DNA of 32,821 bases from an uncultured Verrucomicrobiota bacterium (GTDB lineage Bacteria > Verrucomicrobiota > Verrucomicrobiia > Opitutales > Seribacteraceae): assembly GCA_902612125.1 (NCBI GenBank), contig CACMBV010000024.1, forward strand, positions 1 through 32,821, written 5' to 3'. Position numbers and translations under genes: made by a program. Below, in pieces: positions 23,075 through 32,821 of this stretch. Below the pieces are notes generated by a model that had not been told where the DNA came from, ran no database searches, and was given only the letters and a program-made list of their open reading frames with translations. The stretch's first letter is position 1. Every line of letters begins with the position of its first letter.

Positions 23075-23201
23075 AAATATATGATTTATATAAATGGTAT
23101 TTACTCCATATGTCGAAATCAAGTCGGTTATCTTTTATTATCAGATTTTATTGCTTTAGCTTTCTAGCTTGAACTGTAAGCATCCAGAGAACCATTTAAT
23201 A
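23075..23201. promoter_or_regulatory. Divergent region between cytochrome/DUF1549 and sialidase-like genes
   Basis: A 127-base divergent region expected to carry promoters for both genes. It is strongly AT-rich near the minus-strand start (atatgatttatataaat). A TCGACA on the minus strand resembles a -35 box, but no -10 box sits at a good distance. The nearest plus-strand TTGAAC near 23169 has no convincing partner. No operator repeat was recognised. Confidence 0.35.
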
Positions 23202-24254
23202 ATGATGAATAAAAAGATTTCTGTTGTTGCTACGAATGCATGTGGGTGGCCAAATTTGACAAAACTAAAAAATGGGCAAGTTTTATGTACTTATTTTAAT
23301 GCCCCGAGTCATGGATTAATGAAGGGCGATTTAATTTGCTCAATTTCGGATCGTAATGGTTTGAATTGGAGAAAAAGAGGAATGGTCGCTAAACATCCAA
23401 AGGGCGGAAATCGCATGCACTTGGCCGTTGGTATGGCAAATAATGGCGACTTATTGTGCTTTAGTAGTGGGTTTTATATTAAAGAAGAGAAGTTCGCGGG
23501 CTTTTCTGGCCATTGGCTTTCCAGATCAACAGACCGTGGAAAAACCTGGAAGGAAGATTCATCCCCAGATGTGCCCAAAGTAATTCAATCTGCCATCCCT
23601 TTTGGACGGATCATTTCTATGGGTGGAAAGAAATTGGCTTATTCTTCCTATTGTTCGAAGGGTAGCGGGAAACCAAGTGAATCATGGCTGGTCTCATCTG
23701 AAGATGATGGTAAATCTTGGAATAAAATAAGTAAATTTGGCTCGAACGATTCCAATGAAGCCACGCTTTGCCATTTTTCTGATAAACGCGTACTCGCGGC
23801 TGTTCGAACTCACATTGATCATCATGTAAAACTCTGTGAATTTTCCTTGAATAATAAAAAAAGATGGAAAGAAAAAGGACCTCTTACTCTTCCAATGCAG
23901 CATCCCGCCGATCTTACCCAACTTTCAGATAATTGTCTTCTGTTAACCTATGGAATTCGCAATCGTGGACTTATGGGAATCGGTGCAAGGCTAAGCATTG
24001 ATGCCGGCAAAACCTGGAGACCCCCTTGGGTTATCCATCAGTTTGGCAATGAGGCAAAAGATATTGGTTATCCATCAACTACAGCTGTTGATAAGGAAGG
24101 CACATTACTCACAGCGTTTTATACGGATTACGAGTCAACACTTAAGAAAAAACCAAATTTATACAGAGTCCTGAGTATGAGATGGTCTCTCAAGGATTGG
24201 CTGCATCCAACAATCCTAGGATCAATATCAGATGGTAAGCAGCTAAAGTTATAA
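23202..24254 (+). CDS. Sialidase-fold (BNR/Asp-box) protein
   Basis: A 350-residue six-bladed-propeller protein of the sialidase/neuraminidase superfamily (BNR_2-like). Three clean Asp boxes (S-x-D-x-G-x-T/S-W) are visible: STDRGKTW, SEDDGKSW and SIDAGKTW. A degenerate one, SDRNGLNW, lies nearer the N-terminus. Blade-like sequences such as TKLKNGQVLCTYFNA and TQLSDNCLLLTYG alternate with them. I prefer the ATG at 23202 (or the adjacent one at 23205) over a TTG at 23169, which would add 11 unconvincing residues. No signal peptide is evident, so the protein appears cytoplasmic, unlike its secreted neighbours. Without the active-site arginines mapped, sialidase activity is unproven; such proteins in PVC glycan clusters can be other glycosidases or lyases. 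It converges with the sulfatase gene, 4 bases apart. Confidence 0.75.
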   Translation: MMNKKISVVATNACGWPNLTKLKNGQVLCTYFNAPSHGLMKGDLICSISDRNGLNWRKRGMVAKHPKGGNRMHLAVGMANNGDLLCFSSGFYIKEEKFAGFSGHWLSRSTDRGKTWKEDSSPDVPKVIQSAIPFGRIISMGGKKLAYSSYCSKGSGKPSESWLVSSEDDGKSWNKISKFGSNDSNEATLCHFSDKRVLAAVRTHIDHHVKLCEFSLNNKKRWKEKGPLTLPMQHPADLTQLSDNCLLLTYGIRNRGLMGIGARLSIDAGKTWRPPWVIHQFGNEAKDIGYPSTTAVDKEGTLLTAFYTDYESTLKKKPNLYRVLSMRWSLKDWLHPTILGSISDGKQLKL

Positions 24255-24258
24255 AGGC

Positions 24259-25854
24259 TTATGACTTTTTTCTGTAAAGTTCGATATAATCGGGACGGAC
24301 GGAAACATCGCTATCATCTTCGTAATGCTTGCGTAGATTCTTGAGTCGATTGTTGAGAGTCTTTTGTACTTTTTCAGATTTCTTATTTCCAAAGATATTT
24401 GTGAGTTCATCCGGATCGGTTTTAAGATCATACATTTCCCATTCTTTACCGAATTGGTAGAAATGCATGAGCTTATACCTTTTTGTTCTTATTCCGTAAT
24501 GCCGAGGGATCATGTGAACACTAGGATATTCATAATAATGATAATAAATTTCCTTCCTCCAATTTTTTGGAGTTTCGTCTTTGAGGAGCGGAACTAGTGA
24601 CGAACCTTGCATATCTTTAGGTTGTGGAGCACCAGCAATCTCAAGAAAGGTTTGTGCATAATCCAAATTTTGAACCAAGTCGGTATTTCTGCTCCCTGCT
24701 TTCACCACTCCGGGCCATTTGACAATAAATGGCATTTTGAGAGATTCTTCATACATCCATCTCTTATCATACCATCCATGATCCCCAATATAGAAACCCT
24801 GATCAGAGGAATAAATAACGATGGTATTCTTATCCAGTCCCAATCTCGTTAGTTCCTTTTGCAGTCGGTCAACACTTTCATCAACCCCTTTTACGCAGCG
24901 GAGATAATTTTTTGCATATCTTTGGAATTTCCATCGAACAAGGTCTTTATCTCTAAGTTTAGCTTCGTGAAAAGCTTTATCCCGGGGAGCATAGTGGTCC
25001 CTCCATGCATTAAGTTGTTCGGCAGACATTCTTTTCATGTTATGCCATGCTGATCGGTCTTGTCTCTTTTGAGAAGGTGGTTGATTAAAATCGGGAGTCA
25101 AATCAACGAACAAATCGTAGTTCAGATCCATATGACGATCGATTTCGAGCTCTTGCACTCTTGCCCCTGGAGCATTGTCCTTCCACTTATCAAAAAGAGT
25201 GGGTGGTTCGGGTATGTCAATATCATCGTAGAGTGATAGATGCCTTAATGCAGGCATCCAGTTGCGATGGGGTGCCTTATGTTGAACCATGAGCATAAAA
25301 GGCTTATCCTTAGATCTCTTGTCATTTAGCCATTCAACTGCAAGATCGGTTACGACATCCGTGCAATATCCATCGATCCTCTTTCTGCCATCAGGAAAAA
25401 TTATGTCCGGATTGTAATACAACCCCTGACCTGGCAGAACCGCCCAATCGTCATAACCTAAAGGCTTACCTTTCAGGTGGCTTTTGCCGTAAATAGCCGT
25501 TTGATATCCTGATTTCTGGAGAAGTTTGGGGAAAGTCTGCTGATTCCAGTCAAAAGTATTACCATTGTTCATAAAGCCATTTTTATGGCTATGTTTCCCG
25601 GTTTGAATGACAGCTCGGCTAGGACCGCATATAGAGTTGGTGCAAAAACTATTTACAAAAACCATCCCTTCTTTAGCCAGTGTATCTATTACTGGTGTTG
25701 GGTTAACTGACTTGAGCCAACCGTTGTATGCACCGATCGCATGAGGTGCATGGTCATCAGTAAAAACAAAAAGTATATTGGGCCGTTCATCTGTTTTACT
25801 GTACAAGAAAATTAGGAAATGTAGTGAGAATAAGCTAAGGATAATTTTTTTCAT
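24259..25854 (-). CDS. Type I (formylglycine) sulfatase, secreted
   Basis: A 531-residue arylsulfatase-family enzyme hydrolysing sulfate esters, probably on a polysaccharide. A signal peptide opens the protein (MKKIILSLFSLHFLIFLYS). All catalytic elements are present: metal-binding D33/D34 in FVFTDDHAPH, the formylglycine motif C76-G-P-S-R80, GKSH with K124 and H126, H196 in QHKAPH, D352/Q353 in SSDQGFYIGDHGW, and H360 and K365. The C76 motif needs a formylglycine-generating enzyme, not encoded in this window. The C-terminal GIRTKRYKLMHFYQFGKEWE and MYDLKTDPDELTN sequences are the usual subdomain. ATG at 25852-25854. A terminator separates it from the upstream paralogue, so it likely has its own promoter. 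The exact substrate cannot be assigned from sequence. Confidence 0.93.
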   Translation of the reverse strand: MKKIILSLFSLHFLIFLYSKTDERPNILFVFTDDHAPHAIGAYNGWLKSVNPTPVIDTLAKEGMVFVNSFCTNSICGPSRAVIQTGKHSHKNGFMNNGNTFDWNQQTFPKLLQKSGYQTAIYGKSHLKGKPLGYDDWAVLPGQGLYYNPDIIFPDGRKRIDGYCTDVVTDLAVEWLNDKRSKDKPFMLMVQHKAPHRNWMPALRHLSLYDDIDIPEPPTLFDKWKDNAPGARVQELEIDRHMDLNYDLFVDLTPDFNQPPSQKRQDRSAWHNMKRMSAEQLNAWRDHYAPRDKAFHEAKLRDKDLVRWKFQRYAKNYLRCVKGVDESVDRLQKELTRLGLDKNTIVIYSSDQGFYIGDHGWYDKRWMYEESLKMPFIVKWPGVVKAGSRNTDLVQNLDYAQTFLEIAGAPQPKDMQGSSLVPLLKDETPKNWRKEIYYHYYEYPSVHMIPRHYGIRTKRYKLMHFYQFGKEWEMYDLKTDPDELTNIFGNKKSEKVQKTLNNRLKNLRKHYEDDSDVSVRPDYIELYRKKS

Positions 25855-25880
25855 TTGTGGGCTGGTGTGAATTAGCTAAT
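25855..25880 (-). promoter_or_regulatory. Short leader between terminator and sulfatase start
   Basis: Only 26 bases lie between the terminator tail and the sulfatase ATG. If the sulfatase has its own promoter, it must overlap the terminator or lie upstream of it (25920-26032, AT-rich, no clear hexamers seen). Alternatively the gene is expressed by readthrough past the hairpin, which would make the hairpin an attenuating element. Confidence 0.25.
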
Positions 25881-25919
25881 CAAAAAAGACGAAAGGCACC
25901 GTCCTCCCAAACGGTGCCT
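25881..25919 (-). terminator. Rho-independent terminator behind the pseudo-sulfatase gene
   Basis: A perfect 9-bp inverted repeat: AGGCACCGT at 25894-25902 and ACGGTGCCT at 25911-25919, with an 8-base loop. Read on the minus strand the stem is followed by TTCGTCTTTTTTG, a T-rich tail typical of intrinsic terminators; on the plus strand there is no T run. It lies 113 bases past the stop of the degenerate sulfatase gene and just before the start of the intact sulfatase. Confidence 0.8.
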
Positions 25920-26032
25920 CTCAGGATATGCATTCCTACGAGGAGTATTAAGCAATAAAAGCATATCTATACAATACTTTTTTTACTTTTCCTTCAGATA
26001 ATAGTAGGAATTTACCAAATTAAACATCGTAC

Positions 26033-27736
26033 TTATTCCATTCTTGCGGATGGCCCACGGTAAATTCTTCGCCACTTTTCTGGCATGATTGATTTGTCAC
26101 CTAGATCAGTGATTTGAAACAGAATTCCCGCAAGGTTTTTTTTAAGATCTTCAATTTCATTGTACGAGTTGATTATATTTTTGGTCTCGGGCAGGTCATT
26201 TTCAATATCAAATAATTCCCATTCTCCGAATTGGTAATAATGAATCAATTTATAAGCCTGTGTCCTGATTCCATAATGTTTAGCGACCATTCCAGAGCCG
26301 GGAAAATCATAGTTGTGAAAGTAAAGCGATTTTCTCTGTTTAACCTCTGTTGAATTCCAACCTTCCGCATTAAGAGCAAGGCCGTGGTTGTTTTCAAAGT
26401 CATCACAATTCGCCAAACTCAAAAGGGTTGGAACAAGATCAATATCCTGAACATTTGTTTCGATCTTTAAGGGAGCGTATTCCTTACTGTTGATAAGGGT
26501 AAAGCTAAGAGGAATTCGCATACTTGGCTCCATTATCCATTTACTTCCAAACCACCCTTTTTCACCAATAAATCTTCCCTGGCTTGCGGTGTAGACAAAG
26601 ATGCATTCTTGATTAGAAAATTGTTCGTAAAAGGACCTGAATCGACCAATATTTTCATCTACGTCCCGAATGCACCGAAGGTAGTTTTTGACAAATCTCT
26701 GGTATTTCCATCTAAGAAGCTCTTCTCCTGTAGGAACTTCTCTAAAGTAAGCTTCATTTTGCGGGCGCCACAAGAGCTGCCAAGTTGAAAATTGCTCCTC
26801 ATTCATCTTGGAGAGATTTTTTTGGTAAACACCTAGTATTTTTGACTTATTAGGATTTGGTTTCTGGGTTGATCCAACAAAAAGGTCGGAAGTGAGGTTC
26901 AAGTCATTACCTATTTCATTCATTTGATACCTTGATGCAGGGGCCAAATCTTTCTGATTGGAAAACAGGGTGGAAGGTTCCGGGAGTAAAATATTGTTGT
27001 ATGTTTCAAGCTGCCTCAAGGATGGCATCCATGGTCTCTGGGTGGCATTATAAAAAACAAATGCTAGGAATGGTTTGGCAGAGGTTTCCCTTCTCCGTAT
27101 CCACTGAATTAGGAGGTCCGTGATGATGTCAGTTGCATGACCCTCAATTTGTCGCTCGCCAGCCGCTGATATGATGGTTGGATTAAAAAATTCATTTCTT
27201 TCTTCCAAGACTTCCCAGTGGTTAAAATCCGCAGGCTCAGTTTTCAAATCCCACCTTCCGAACAAAGCAGTTTCATAACCATTCGCTGCCAATGCTCTTG
27301 GGAGTGTCGGTTGGTTTGGGTCAAATCTATTTCCGTTTAATAAAAGCCCATGCTGATGAGCAAATTTACCAGTAAGCAGCGTGGCACTTCCGGGAGAGGA
27401 ACTGCCATTGGAACAAAATGCATTAATAAAAGAATAACCCGTTTTACCTAAGTTATCTATGTTTGGAGTCGGGTTCATTTCTTTAAATCGGTCACTTTTA
27501 ATTCCCCAGGTGCTCACCGCATGGTCATGCTGTACAAAGATAACAAAACTAAGGGCTTGGTCCTTACCCTGTACGGCTGAAATCATTGGCCATGAAATAG
27601 GCAATAAGAACAAAACTGAATTGAGTACTATCAATGTTGGATGTACCGGGTTGATTAGTTTGCTACCAAAAAGGACCATAAAAGAGAATTTAGCTGAATT
27701 ACGAATAATCGAAAAGAATTTAGTGCGCCCGGCCAT
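26033..27736 (-). CDS. Sulfatase-fold protein with degenerate active site (probable pseudoenzyme)
   Basis: A full-length 567-residue paralogue of the neighbouring sulfatase, alignable by eye from the N-terminal metal motif to the C-terminal YKLIHYYQFGEWELFD region. Yet almost every catalytic position differs (intact to this protein): D33 to H70, C76 to S113, R80 to S117 (CGPSR reads SSPGS), K124 to R161, H126 to D163, H196 to Q233, D352 to S385, H360 to K393, K365 to S398. Only one Asp (D71) and the Gln (Q386) of the metal site remain. The reading frame is intact, so this is not a decaying pseudogene in appearance. The N-terminus is longer and has a hydrophobic segment at about residues 32-53, probably a signal or membrane anchor. 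ATG at 27734-27736; it diverges from glmS. Function unknown; glycan binding or a scaffold role are guesses. Confidence 0.85.
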   Translation of the reverse strand: MAGRTKFFSIIRNSAKFSFMVLFGSKLINPVHPTLIVLNSVLFLLPISWPMISAVQGKDQALSFVIFVQHDHAVSTWGIKSDRFKEMNPTPNIDNLGKTGYSFINAFCSNGSSSPGSATLLTGKFAHQHGLLLNGNRFDPNQPTLPRALAANGYETALFGRWDLKTEPADFNHWEVLEERNEFFNPTIISAAGERQIEGHATDIITDLLIQWIRRRETSAKPFLAFVFYNATQRPWMPSLRQLETYNNILLPEPSTLFSNQKDLAPASRYQMNEIGNDLNLTSDLFVGSTQKPNPNKSKILGVYQKNLSKMNEEQFSTWQLLWRPQNEAYFREVPTGEELLRWKYQRFVKNYLRCIRDVDENIGRFRSFYEQFSNQECIFVYTASQGRFIGEKGWFGSKWIMEPSMRIPLSFTLINSKEYAPLKIETNVQDIDLVPTLLSLANCDDFENNHGLALNAEGWNSTEVKQRKSLYFHNYDFPGSGMVAKHYGIRTQAYKLIHYYQFGEWELFDIENDLPETKNIINSYNEIEDLKKNLAGILFQITDLGDKSIMPEKWRRIYRGPSARME

Positions 27737-27821: not shown

Positions 27822-29666
27822 ATGTGTGGTATCATTGGTTACATAGGTAAAGGCTTAGCACAAGAATCTCTCATTGATGGTCTGAGAAGGCTTGAATACA
27901 GAGGGTACGACTCAGCAGGAGTTGCTTTTCACGAGGGAAATGAATTCTGCATGTCTCGCGAGACGGGTCGCGTACAAAACCTCGCAGACTCCGTTCAAAA
28001 GAATAGTTCACAATCTTCTCTGGGTATCGCCCATACAAGATGGGCCACTCACGGTGCGGTCACGGTTCCCAACACTCATCCCCATGTCAGTCATGACGGA
28101 AAGTTTGTGATGGTGCATAATGGCGTCATCGAAAATTTTGGGGCTTTAAAACATTTCCTGTCTGGAAAAGGGATTGAATTCAACTCTGAAACCGACTCGG
28201 AAGTCCTTTGTAATTTAATAGCATATAATTACTCAGAATTGCTCAATGAAAAAGACAGACTTATAGACGCTGTTCGTATTGCACTTGCTCAGTGTCGCGG
28301 AGCATACGGTATTGCTGTCCTCTGCTTGGATTATTCGGAAACAATGATAGGAGCCCGCAGGGGTTCACCCCTAGTCGTTGGCCTGGGAGATGACGCTAAT
28401 TTTATTGCGAGTGATGCTTCTGCTTTTGTGGGTCGTGCCAAAGAAGCAGTGTTCTTAAATGATGGTGAATTGGCAATTCTTAAAGGGACTGACTTCCGTA
28501 TTACTACTTTGGAGGGGCAGGAAGCCAAAGCCGTCGCCCATCCGGTTGATCAAATTTCCGAAGAGGTTGAAATAGGAGATTTTGATTCTTTCATGGAAAA
28601 AGAGATTTATGAACAACCGACAGCCCTGAAAAATACTTTGCGGGGACGTTTCGGGGATGACGGAACAACTGCAAAACTTGGCGGTTTGGAGGGGCACGAA
28701 GAGGAACTTCGAAATTTAGACCGAATTATTTTTGTTGCCTGCGGCACAGCGAGGCATGCTTGTATGGTTGGAGAATATTTAATTGAAAGATTGGCGAGGG
28801 TTCCTGTCGAGGTAGAGCATGCCTCTGAATTTAGGTACCGAAATTCTCCTAAAGCTGAGAAATCGCTAGTGATCGCAGTTAGTCAATCAGGCGAAACATT
28901 AGACACTCTCGAAGCTGTTCGTGAAGCTAAGACCAAAGGGCTTCTTACCTTGGGCATTACCAATGTAGTGGGATCATCTTTAGCTCGAGAAACGGACGGG
29001 GGAGTCTATCAGCGCGTTGGTCCAGAAATTGGAGTCGCATCAACCAAAGCTTTTTCTTCCCAGGTTTGCTTGTGTGCTATGCTAGGTCTGGCACTTGGTC
29101 GCATGAGAGACCTTTCGCCCATGGATGGACAAGGTATTGTTGAGGCACTAAACGATCTTCCGGATTTAGTTTCGAGAGTTTTGCAACAAGGAGAACAGAT
29201 CCGGGAATTGGCTTTAAAATACAGCAAAGCAGAGCATCTGCTTTTTATGGGCCGACAGAGTTTATACCCGGTTGCCTTGGAGGGTGCCTTAAAATTAAAG
29301 GAGATTTCTTATGCCCATGCTGAGGGATATCCCGCCGCGGAATTGAAGCACGGTCCGATCGCCCTGATCAATCCTGAATGCCCTTCCATTTTTATAGTTG
29401 AGGGAAGTGAATTGTCAGCCAAGACGATAGCCAATATGCAAGAGGTAAAAGCGCGTCAAGGTCCAGTATTAGCAATTGCACCAGAAGGTGTTGAAATCCC
29501 AAAGGAAGCGGCCGACGATGTTTTTAGGTTGCCGGTTGCCCATGAGGTGGTTCGACCGATTTTAGCAAACCTACCTTTGCAGTTATTTGCCTATCACTTT
29601 GCCCGCTTACGAGGTCTTGATGTAGATAAACCTCGTAATCTAGCAAAGTCAGTGACGGTGGAATAG
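27822..29666 (+). CDS. glmS: Glutamine--fructose-6-phosphate aminotransferase (isomerizing)
   Basis: GlmS (614 aa) makes glucosamine-6-phosphate from fructose-6-phosphate and glutamine, the entry step to UDP-GlcNAc for peptidoglycan and lipopolysaccharide. The N-terminal class II amidotransferase domain starts with C2 after Met removal (MCGIIGYIG) and has RLEYRGYDSAGVA, HTRWATHG and HNGVIENF. Two SIS sugar-isomerase domains follow: VACGTARHACMVGEYLIE then SQSGETLDTLEAVREAK with GVASTKAFSSQ, and further on GRQSLYPVALEGALKLKEIS, EGYPAAELKHGP. The C-terminus DKPRNLAKSVTVE is the canonical GlmS ending that closes the active site. Complete and ordinary. Upstream and divergent is the pseudo-sulfatase. 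A hairpin about 60 bases downstream may end the transcript. Confidence 0.97.
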   Translation: MCGIIGYIGKGLAQESLIDGLRRLEYRGYDSAGVAFHEGNEFCMSRETGRVQNLADSVQKNSSQSSLGIAHTRWATHGAVTVPNTHPHVSHDGKFVMVHNGVIENFGALKHFLSGKGIEFNSETDSEVLCNLIAYNYSELLNEKDRLIDAVRIALAQCRGAYGIAVLCLDYSETMIGARRGSPLVVGLGDDANFIASDASAFVGRAKEAVFLNDGELAILKGTDFRITTLEGQEAKAVAHPVDQISEEVEIGDFDSFMEKEIYEQPTALKNTLRGRFGDDGTTAKLGGLEGHEEELRNLDRIIFVACGTARHACMVGEYLIERLARVPVEVEHASEFRYRNSPKAEKSLVIAVSQSGETLDTLEAVREAKTKGLLTLGITNVVGSSLARETDGGVYQRVGPEIGVASTKAFSSQVCLCAMLGLALGRMRDLSPMDGQGIVEALNDLPDLVSRVLQQGEQIRELALKYSKAEHLLFMGRQSLYPVALEGALKLKEISYAHAEGYPAAELKHGPIALINPECPSIFIVEGSELSAKTIANMQEVKARQGPVLAIAPEGVEIPKEAADDVFRLPVAHEVVRPILANLPLQLFAYHFARLRGLDVDKPRNLAKSVTVE

Positions 29667-29981: not shown

Positions 29982-30911
29982 TTATTTTGTGGGAAATCTT
30001 CTTACTCCCTTTCCTCCGCAAACATAGAGGTAATTTTCGAAGTGCCTCAATACATTAGCATGATCTCCCGAGTTAAATATATCGGTTTGCTGGCCTTTCT
30101 TTAAATCAAACACGCGAACTTCCTGATTTTGCCCAAGCCCGACATAAAGTAATCCCTGATCATCAAATGCTAATCCCCTTGGCTCCACTCCGTTGGGGGA
30201 GAAATCAACTAAAGTCCATGATTCAACCGGAATCAGTTCTTCTGGGATGTCAAACACGACTACCCTTGATGCATCGGGTTCGGCGGCAACCAAGCTCTTG
30301 CCATCCGGGCTCACGCTGATTCCTTGTACGCGAACGAGGTTCTCATTGAGTATGCCAATAAACCCTTCCTGCGGTCGAATCCGGTAAATGGTTCCGGAAA
30401 AAGGAGAGCTAACAAAAAGATCGTTCCCTTTCCCAATAGCCAAATCTTTTACGGTGGTGAAACGGTATCCGTCGTATGAGTCAGCGATAACCTCAAGTTT
30501 TCGGGCATCTGGACTTACTCGAAGTAGTTTGCCGGTACCAGATTCAGCAATCAAGAGTCTTTCCTTGTTATCAACCCGCAACCCCTCTGCCTTGGGAACT
30601 GAGTTATCTGGCGGGGAAATCCATTCGGGCAACTTCATGAAGACTGCAGGCTCTGAGAACACATTTAATTTCATACTCTTGATGACTTCCCGTTTTTCAA
30701 GTTCTGTAAAATAAACCAGTCCATTCTTGGAAAATGCAATATTAGAAGCATTACTCAGGTGACTGTTGATGTATTGTTTGAGTTTAGACTCTTTCTGATT
30801 GGGAATGTTCTTATTCTGCCGCTTAGGCGTAACGGATACAGTCACGCATCCTGCATAAAAGAGGAGACAAATCGAAGCGAGCTTGGCTTTAAAAAGAAGT
30901 TTGTGTTTCAA
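29982..30911 (-). CDS. Beta-propeller (NHL/SMP-30-like) putative lipoprotein
   Basis: A 309-residue exported protein. The N-terminus (MKHKLLFKAKLASICLLFYAGC) is a basic, then hydrophobic signal ending at C22 in a lipobox-like YAGC, so it may be a lipoprotein, though Tyr at -3 is not ideal. The rest is propeller-like, in repeated units of a loop plus short strands: ISPPDNSVPKAEGLRVDNKE, RLLIAESGTGKLLRVSPDA, NDLFVSSPFSGTIYRI, GISVSPDGKSLVAAEPDASR and GLAFDDQGLLYVGLGQNQ. These resemble NHL/SMP-30/gluconolactonase-type proteins, but no catalytic metal site is obvious. The start is TTG at 30909-30911; no in-frame ATG or GTG lies between it and an upstream in-frame TAG, and the next Met is internal. 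Function unknown. It diverges from the Sir2 gene. Confidence 0.65.
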   Translation of the reverse strand: MKHKLLFKAKLASICLLFYAGCVTVSVTPKRQNKNIPNQKESKLKQYINSHLSNASNIAFSKNGLVYFTELEKREVIKSMKLNVFSEPAVFMKLPEWISPPDNSVPKAEGLRVDNKERLLIAESGTGKLLRVSPDARKLEVIADSYDGYRFTTVKDLAIGKGNDLFVSSPFSGTIYRIRPQEGFIGILNENLVRVQGISVSPDGKSLVAAEPDASRVVVFDIPEELIPVESWTLVDFSPNGVEPRGLAFDDQGLLYVGLGQNQEVRVFDLKKGQQTDIFNSGDHANVLRHFENYLYVCGGKGVRRFPTK

Positions 30912-31011
30912 AAGTGTTCGTAAAAACTTTTTTACCTAACATCTAGATGAAATTAGTTTCAAAGGAAAAACAGATGGTTTCAAAAAAATTTACACCCAGG
31001 TTGTGATGGTC
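30912..31011. promoter_or_regulatory. Divergent region between propeller lipoprotein and Sir2 gene
   Basis: This 100-base AT-rich region separates the two divergent genes, so promoters are expected. It contains three A/T homopolymer runs of six to seven bases but no hexamer pair I would defend. The Sir2 start is ambiguous here (GTG 31003, ATG 31006, ATG 31012). Confidence 0.25.
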
Positions 31012-31833
31012 ATGGATACAAAAATTGTGCAAGTTAAGGAAGCTTTGCATTCCTCTGAAGCCCTGCTAATCGGGGCAGGGGCAGGAATGGGGGTGGATTC
31101 CGGATTGCCCGATTTTCGGGGCAAGGAAGGTTTTTGGAAGGCCTATCCACCTCTTGCGAAGTTGGGGATCAGATTTGAAGAGATGGCAAATCCCAAATGG
31201 TTTCAGGATGATCCTGACCTGGCATGGGGATTTTATGGTCATCGATTGCATCAATATAGAAACACCAACCCACATGCCGGGTTTTCAATTATTAAAAAAT
31301 GGATGATTCCCCCCAAAACCTCCTTTGTTTACACTTCCAATGTGGATGGGCATTTTCAAAAATCCGGTTTTGAAGATCGAGGTATTTTGGAATGTCATGG
31401 ATCGATTCATTTTCTTCAGTGTATGAGGAATTGCGGAAGGGATGTTTGGTCATTTCCGGAAGACTACAAATTATCAATTGATCAGAATCTTCATGCCAGA
31501 GAACCGCTTCCCAGTTGTCCAGACTGTAATGGAATGGCTAGACCGAATATTCTGATGTTTTCGGATTATGGATGGGATTCTTCGAGAGTGGAAAAACAGA
31601 TGGACGCCTTCAGTTCATGGGTTGAGAGCAATAAATCTAAATCCCTGGTGATTGTTGAAATGGGTGCCGGTTTAGCTGTGCCAACCGTACGCTTGACTTG
31701 CGAAGGTATATTGCATGCGTGGGAAAATGAGGTGACTTTTGTTCGGCTAAATCCAAGAGAGGTAGATCCCACCCACGGAGTTGTGAATATGAGAATGGGG
31801 GCCTTAGCCGCATTGAAACTACTCGATCAATAA
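31012..31833 (+). CDS. Sir2-family NAD-dependent protein deacetylase-like protein
   Basis: A 273-residue sirtuin-fold protein. The NAD-binding motif GAGAGMGVDSGLPDFRG is at about 21-37. TSNVDGHFQKSG, starting at residue 108, corresponds to the TQNIDxLH catalytic strand with Ser in place of Gln. The general base is H129 in ECHGSIHFLQC. A four-cysteine zinc site is C137, C141, C169 and C172. RPNILMFSDYGWDSSR replaces the usual RPxVVxFGE. This is a bacterial subgroup distinct from CobB; deacylase activity is expected from the family but not shown. I chose ATG 31012 because it gives the usual short lead-in, with GTG 31003 and ATG 31006 as alternatives. The Wadjet-type gene begins 143 bases downstream on the same strand. 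That Sir2 belongs to the defence locus is only a possibility. Confidence 0.8.
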   Translation: MDTKIVQVKEALHSSEALLIGAGAGMGVDSGLPDFRGKEGFWKAYPPLAKLGIRFEEMANPKWFQDDPDLAWGFYGHRLHQYRNTNPHAGFSIIKKWMIPPKTSFVYTSNVDGHFQKSGFEDRGILECHGSIHFLQCMRNCGRDVWSFPEDYKLSIDQNLHAREPLPSCPDCNGMARPNILMFSDYGWDSSRVEKQMDAFSSWVESNKSKSLVIVEMGAGLAVPTVRLTCEGILHAWENEVTFVRLNPREVDPTHGVVNMRMGALAALKLLDQ

Positions 31834-31976: not shown

Positions 31977-32821
31977 ATGATGGATGAGGATTTCCTTCAC
32001 TTGTTTGAAGAGTCGCCAGCTTTGCGGCTCATGCGTGGTCGTCTAGGCTTTTTTGTTGTCGGGTTTTTTTTTAAAACCTTCAAGAAATGGGGCTCAACGG
32101 AGGCTTCAGAGGAGGAGCTTATCGTAACCCTTTCGGAACATATTGAGCAGGTGCGCGAGTTAGAGGGATTTGATGCCCCTAAGCGTTCGCCTCAGGATTA
32201 CCTGGATGAATGGTGCGATGAGGACCATCGATACTTGACAAAGACCTATGACGAGGACCGGGAGGAATATGTTTTTCGCCTGACCAGGCATTCTGAAAAA
32301 GCCTTAAGTTGGCTCCAAGATTTACTATCCATGCAGCAGCGGGGATATGCCACTACAGAGTCGAGGTTTAATCGAATCCTTCTCGAGATGGAAAGTCTTT
32401 CGCAGGGAGTGAATACCGATCCGGAGTCCCGTATTAAAGACTTATCCAGAAAGCGTGATGAAATTGATGAGGAAATCCAAAGAATCCGGGATACCGGCGA
32501 AGCTCCTATTTTTGGTGAGGATGTCATTCGCGATCAAGTCTACGATTTGTCAGACTTAGTTGAGTATTTCCTTTCTGATTTTCGTGCGATTGAAGAATTT
32601 TTTAAGGTTCATGCCCGGGAAATTTCCAAGCTTTATGCCCAGGGAGATACGTCCAAGGGAGATATCGTGGAGCATGTATTGGATGCCGATGAAGAATTGA
32701 GAAATTGTGATCAGGGTAAAAGTTACTTTGGTTTCCGTTCGATGATGACCAATCCGACCCTTGCCCGCCAATTTAGAAACTTAGCCGAACAAACATCCAG
32801 CATTGCCCGAAGACGCGGATT
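31977..32821 (+). CDS. jetA: Wadjet system protein JetA (DUF3375), truncated by window edge
   Basis: An ATG (31977, with a second at 31980) opens a frame with no stop to the end of the window, giving 281 codons of an incomplete protein. Its sequence matches the DUF3375 family: LRLMRGRLGFFVVGFFF near the start, SPQDYLDEW, FRLTRHSEKALSWLQDLL, TESRFNRILLEMESLSQG then NTDPESRIKDLSRKRDEIDE, LSDFRAIEEFF, and DQGKSYFGFRSMM. DUF3375 proteins are the JetA (MksF/kleisin-like) subunit of Wadjet. JetABCD is an SMC complex that extrudes loops on small circular DNA and cleaves plasmids with the JetD nuclease. JetB, JetC and JetD would follow on the plus strand beyond base 32821. Four 60-base lines I counted in this gene were 48-52% G+C, somewhat above many neighbours, which mildly suggests transfer. 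Confidence 0.88.
   Translation, partial: MMDEDFLHLFEESPALRLMRGRLGFFVVGFFFKTFKKWGSTEASEEELIVTLSEHIEQVRELEGFDAPKRSPQDYLDEWCDEDHRYLTKTYDEDREEYVFRLTRHSEKALSWLQDLLSMQQRGYATTESRFNRILLEMESLSQGVNTDPESRIKDLSRKRDEIDEEIQRIRDTGEAPIFGEDVIRDQVYDLSDLVEYFLSDFRAIEEFFKVHAREISKLYAQGDTSKGDIVEHVLDADEELRNCDQGKSYFGFRSMMTNPTLARQFRNLAEQTSSIARRRG

Follow-up and report, generated by a model that had tools for sequence, protein, structure and literature searches.

The window, by which is meant the whole stretch of DNA analysed here (32,821 bases), ends within the first gene of a block, jetABC, which by sequence comparison encodes a Wadjet-derived complex without detectable nuclease that is kept in most of the family Seribacteraceae, itself without detectable Smc-ScpAB. 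On balance, the product is probably a Wadjet type I complex that works without its nuclease on the chromosome and serves most of the family as their only condensin of the SMC type.

Organization of the jetABC block and its neighbours

The window is the entire contig C24 of a 2.41-Mb genome assembled in 84 contigs and 64% complete. An open frame of 281 aa runs to its last base and shares 91% identity with JetA of the related locus L038, and its profile matches bear out the truncated JetA/DUF3375 protein that the preliminary description of this DNA had placed at the right edge. Because the window is a whole contig, the truncation of jetA is an assembly break. The remainder of the operon was located on contig C45 (locus L004, 9,449 bases), where a DUF4194 search of the window genome gave its single match, beginning at base 77. 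The features of both contigs are as follows.

27822..29666, plus strand: GlmS-like gene with SIS and glutamine amidotransferase domains (PF01380, 179.9 bits; PF13522, 59.5 bits)
29982..30911, minus strand: SMP-30/gluconolactonase-like (SGL) gene, a frequent neighbour and not part of the system (PF08450, 43.9 bits)
31003..31833, plus strand: Sir2-family gene, a frequent neighbour (PF02146, 71.1 bits; no PADLOC match)
31977..32819, plus strand: jetA (DUF3375, kleisin subunit), N-terminal 281 codons (PF11855, 195.7 bits with a cut-off of 28.6, profile positions 2-257 of 474; PADLOC JetA1, 206.5 bits)
C45 3-44: last 14 codons of jetA (match to the JetA C-terminus of relatives)
C45 44-667: jetB, 207 aa (DUF4194, 99.4 bits; PADLOC JetB1, 134.7 bits)
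C45 639-4163: jetC, 1,174 aa (PADLOC JetC1, 842 bits)

In frame from its first bases, contig C45 encodes FVEVEQLIFQKDSL, followed by a stop codon (bases 3-47), and this end of jetA matches the JetA C-terminus of relatives, for example FVEVEQLIFQKTTL in L038. The start of jetB overlaps the stop of jetA by 4 bases, and jetC in turn overlaps jetB. About 190 JetA codons, as estimated from the 485-aa JetA of L038, fall into the gap between C24 and C45; in relatives the middle of JetA is whole and the order jetA-jetB-jetC is uninterrupted. From the JetA C-terminus on C45 and this gene order we infer that the two contigs adjoin. A binning error of C45 is disfavoured, as JetA on C24 and JetB and JetC on C45 share the nearest relatives L038 and L062. 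The Walker A (GxNGxGKST), signature and Walker B motifs were present in all 34 JetC sequences compared (25 from the family, 9 from loci with JetD).

Among the 29 family loci fetched, some of them truncated, an SGL gene was labelled in 24, a Sir2 gene in 23 and a GlmS-like gene in 11. The latter is 82-89% identical across its 11 loci and serves as a left-flank landmark in part of the family; loci without this label either have different genes in that place or do not extend so far. The Sir2 gene, whose position next to Wadjet had been singled out earlier, is thus a recurrent neighbour; it probably does not belong to the system, since no Sir2 gene was found next to jetABC in L059, PADLOC gives no match for it and it evolves faster, with dN/dS of 0.10-0.21 where measurable, several times the jetABC values. 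It is also missing at the corresponding site of genomes G017 and G037. Further to the left (23169-27736), two sulfatases with SGSH_C domains stand beside a BNR-repeat gene, which fits the earlier guess of a glycan-degrading bacterium. Beyond the other end of the block, the minus strand of C45 (8003-9448) carries a 481-aa frame with YQSPGSG/YQTPGGG-type repeats and without Pfam match; several relatives have frames 41-48% identical to it close to the block.

Search for the JetD nuclease and origin of the block

A genome-wide profile search for JetD_C, one of the two domains of JetD (the other being DUF3322), gave no match in any of the 42 Seribacteraceae genomes, the window genome included, and was positive in 1 of 14 controls (Corynebacterium glutamicum). 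A local JetD HMM, built from eight Verrucomicrobiota JetD sequences, recovered jetD after jetC in seven loci outside its training (L152, L154, L155, L156, L158, L161 and L162) and matched nothing in any family locus searched. On C45 the gene directly after jetC is an aldo/keto reductase gene, and the same gene comes next in 23 of the 25 family loci with a downstream gene, the exceptions being L043 and L044. These 25 loci comprise L004 and 24 of the 29 fetched family loci; L039, L040, L041, L046 and L053 were left out because their sequence breaks off at jetC or soon after it, or does not include jetC. In four more partial loci not counted among the 25 (L109 and L120-L122), the reductase comes next in three, and L122 has two other frames in between. 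The reductase was also considered as a replacement effector and rejected: it matches Aldo_ket_red only and is present without jetABC in four genomes (G017, G037, G040 and G041).

The order jetA-jetB-jetC-jetD that the preliminary description had expected downstream therefore holds for jetB and jetC, and jetD was not found after them. Its reading of the locus as a Wadjet anti-plasmid system fails, because JetD, the component that makes Wadjet anti-plasmid, was found neither at the locus nor in the 42 family genomes.

Relatives of the family JetC were collected by scanning genome contigs; the scan with a single JetC sequence returned none and the scan with a JetC alignment returned 40 loci. The named relatives are Opitutales, Opitutia and Verrucomicrobia assemblies, which we take to be marine, names such as AG-430-C07, AH-709-B10 and AM-382-K23 presumably denoting single-cell genomes. 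Outside the family, the closest JetABC proteins belong to other Opitutales/Puniceicoccales, including a Coraliomargarita, with JetC 38-42% identical. As 10 of the 11 closest outside loci carry jetD (L110, identical with L160; L115, identical with L154; L117, L118, L152, L155, L156, L158, L161 and L162), the nuclease was probably lost on the stem of the family. The JetC tree (45 rows) unites the 25 family rows in one JetD-less clade with support 100 and places a mostly JetD-bearing clade as its sister with support 80, the JetD label needing two changes; this tree is a quick-mode tree with midpoint root and carries a long-branch warning that extends to the point where the family meets its sister clade. 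Identity between the two clades drops at JetB residues 101-200 and at JetC residues of about 481-540, which gives only hints of an altered JetD-binding surface.

The sole exception among the 11 closest outside loci, L112/L153 of Puniceicoccaceae NP23, has no jetD. Its JetD-less JetABC (L112:5240-10772 in genome G089, and L153) is 87-93% identical to that of L110, and in L112 a tyrosyl-tRNA synthetase-like gene lies downstream of jetC in place of jetD. Genome G089 also has ScpA, along with a distant JetABCD (L111). This looks like an independent and recent loss of JetD.

Retention of jetABC and absence of Smc-ScpAB matches

JetA was detected in 29 and JetC in 30 of the 42 family genomes, nearly all of which are incomplete and fragmented. 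Each was present in 12 of the 14 high-quality genomes (completeness of 90% or more, contamination of 5% or less), the two without either being G017 and G032. Across genera g1-g3, JetC is absent from 10 of 40 genomes, compared with 7.8 expected from incompleteness alone (P of 10 or more = 0.23), and the JetA, JetB and JetC frames of the family are full-length in most loci. Elsewhere JetA is sporadic, with matches in 10 of the 249 genomes of a phylum-wide sample (the window genome included, and one of the ten below the curated cut-off) and in 7 of 38 genomes of the same order outside the family. The block was found on contigs of up to 248 kb and so appears to be chromosomal. Its retention across most genomes of three genera fits vertical descent, and jetABC looks like a core gene block and not an accessory defence cassette.

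Selection was estimated from the locus pairs L034/L035, L060/L061 and L054/L051, together with JetA of L050/L056. Where dS was estimable, dN/dS of the family jetABC genes was 0.010-0.045, the values for L034/L035 and for JetA of L050/L056 being rough because dS exceeds 1; saturation affected JetB and JetC of L050/L056 and the whole of jetABC in L038/L062. For neighbour genes the range was 0.03-0.21, the lowest value being that of GlmS (0.029, one pair), and the non-family pair L110/L112 gave 0.03-0.09. By these ratios, jetABC is under strong purifying selection, about as constrained as GlmS and more so than most other neighbours. Pairwise JetC distances correlate with those of GlmS (Mantel r = 0.96, n = 10 loci) and of the aldo/keto reductase (r = 0.61, n = 23 loci), with none of 999 permutations as high in either comparison.

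Several members were found without the block. The two genomes of genus g4 (93% and 89% complete), G017 (91%) and G037 (67%) have the right-flank reductase without jetABC beside it and gave no JetA or JetC match anywhere; ScpA and the SMC hinge were likewise not found in them, and part of the family may thus live without any known condensin, which counts against a strict replacement. The site in G037 has neither jetABC nor Sir2. At that of G017 (L105:7843-10764), the GlmS-like gene lies about 50 bp from the reductase, with SGL, Sir2 and jetABC all missing, as if removed in one step. In genome G032 (96%) both jetABC and the orthologous reductase are missing, so that loss and gap are indistinguishable there.

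The search for canonical Smc-ScpAB covered ScpA and the SMC hinge. ScpA was found in none of the 42 family genomes (controls positive in 9 of 14), nor was the SMC hinge (controls positive in 10 of 14). If ScpA were present in all 42 genomes, the chance of missing every copy through incompleteness would be about 10^-34. The phylum-wide sample has ScpA in 137 of 249 genomes, including 38 that belong to the same order but not to the family; of the 112 genomes without match, 20 were listed, and among these the window genome is the only one of that order. In an SMC_N search, all 42 family genomes match something. Among the matches listed, the strongest come mostly from frames about 360 aa long, a length that suggests RecF as a tentative identity. 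Nine of those listed in frames longer than 900 aa coincide with JetC positions, and the remaining one, in a G027 frame of 1,663 aa, is weak.

Genomes without an ScpA match also occur in other families of the class, 98-100% complete and several of them single-contig: at least 14 in genus g31 of family f8, at least three in g35 of f9 and at least two in g34 of f11. They are absent from the JetA-bearing set as well, and other genera of f8 have ScpA. Smc-ScpAB may have been lost several times in the class. For Akkermansia muciniphila, the accessible part of one article states that no condensin homologue was found (PMC10197239).

Proposed function and comparison with known systems

According to the accessible text of a study of Wadjet, a dimeric JetABC motor extrudes the plasmid, and completion of this step activates JetD for cleavage (PMC12647877). 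The JetA kleisin, the JetB KITE protein and the JetC SMC ATPase of the family would together form a complete SMC motor that descends from Wadjet type I and has lost JetD. Its JetC heads would bind and hydrolyse ATP, and the dimeric complex would extrude loops of DNA in the manner of JetABC in known Wadjet systems. Since the ATPase motifs are conserved and JetD is gone, the complex would be expected to extrude DNA but not to cleave it. We infer from the retention of the block and the absence of Smc-ScpAB matches that JetABC acts on the chromosome, which it may compact and help to segregate in place of the missing Smc-ScpAB.

A continued role in plasmid or phage defence, in which JetABC silences or sequesters circular DNA uncut or an unlinked nuclease has replaced JetD, is unlikely, although the ancestry of JetABC lies in a Wadjet I clade that carries JetD, and although the accessible text of PMC10586767 describes an SMC complex, taken here as Smc5/6, that could condense circular viral DNA and prevent its expression. 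Against it stand the wide and mostly vertical distribution of the block in the family, as opposed to the sporadic JetA of other genomes of the order, its recurring neighbours, a constraint above that of most of them, and the lack of any nuclease among the profiled neighbours (frames of the window and C45). That JetABC plays a secondary role, e.g. in DNA repair or replication support, beside another, unrecognised condensin is improbable: members without match to jetABC, ScpA and the SMC hinge do exist and would agree with it, but the listed SMC_N matches in long frames fall at JetC places apart from the weak one in G027. An ordinary, complete Wadjet with jetD elsewhere in the genome or diverged beyond recognition is very doubtful; the incompleteness of the window genome and the restriction of the genome-wide search to JetD_C leave some room for it, but that search was negative throughout the family, the local HMM finds jetD in relatives and in no family locus, and the reductase nearly always occupies the place after jetC. 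A decaying remnant left after JetD loss is scarcely credible given the mostly intact frames, the conserved ATPase motifs, the low dN/dS and the retention in three genera, even with the block missing at its site in some members.

A wider scenario, whose chances we rate as even, is the separate domestication, within the Verrucomicrobiota, of a plasmid-defence SMC complex, which in a marine Opitutales family became the sole condensin of the chromosome, with JetD lost, Smc-ScpAB gone, JetABC become core and JetD-bearing sisters persisting in relatives. The stages lie within one order, namely relatives that have ScpA and JetABCD, the family, where JetABC occurs and Smc-ScpAB is not detectable, and those of its members that lack both, so that the switch from defence to chromosome maintenance could be tested by phylogeny, biochemistry and Hi-C. 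By itself, a DUF3375 match is no evidence of plasmid defence. No prior description of a JetD-less JetABC in Verrucomicrobiota was found in titles and the beginnings of abstracts, a body of text that mostly excludes the subscription literature, where an earlier report is possible; PMC10689801, in its accessible part, mentions Wadjet and Verrucomicrobiota without linking them to such a complex.

The family block resembles Wadjet type I (JetABCD/MksBEFG/EptABCD) in its JetA1, JetB1 and JetC1 families, the order jetA-jetB-jetC, the gene overlaps and the JetC ATPase motifs, and differs from it in that no JetD was found in locus or family and in being widespread and mostly vertical instead of sporadic. 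The closest relatives found, the JetABCD systems of Coraliomargarita and other Opitutales/Puniceicoccales, have jetD after jetC, unlike the family, and ScpA was present in all four of their genomes searched (G080, G199, G213 and G269). MksBEF of Pseudomonas aeruginosa is likewise a JetABC-type complex of SMC, KITE and kleisin subunits without nuclease; P. aeruginosa, however, also has SMC, as stated in the accessible text of PMC7485682, whereas neither ScpA nor the SMC hinge was found in the family, and the JetD loss described here adjoins a Verrucomicrobiota JetABCD clade in a tree that was built without P. aeruginosa MksB. A precedent for an incomplete Mks set is given by Borrelia, where MksB without MksE and MksF affects chromosome contacts (PMC10406323, accessible part). 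MukBEF of enterobacteria apparently replaced Smc-ScpAB, if the accessible passage of PMC10586767 is read as referring to MukBEF, and is in this respect alike; the family JetC is nevertheless distinct from it, scoring 842 bits with JetC1 and just 26.6 bits with the MukB N-terminal model. If the proposed scenario is true, the route suggested for MukBEF and MksBEF would have another example in the Seribacteraceae, one that can be traced.
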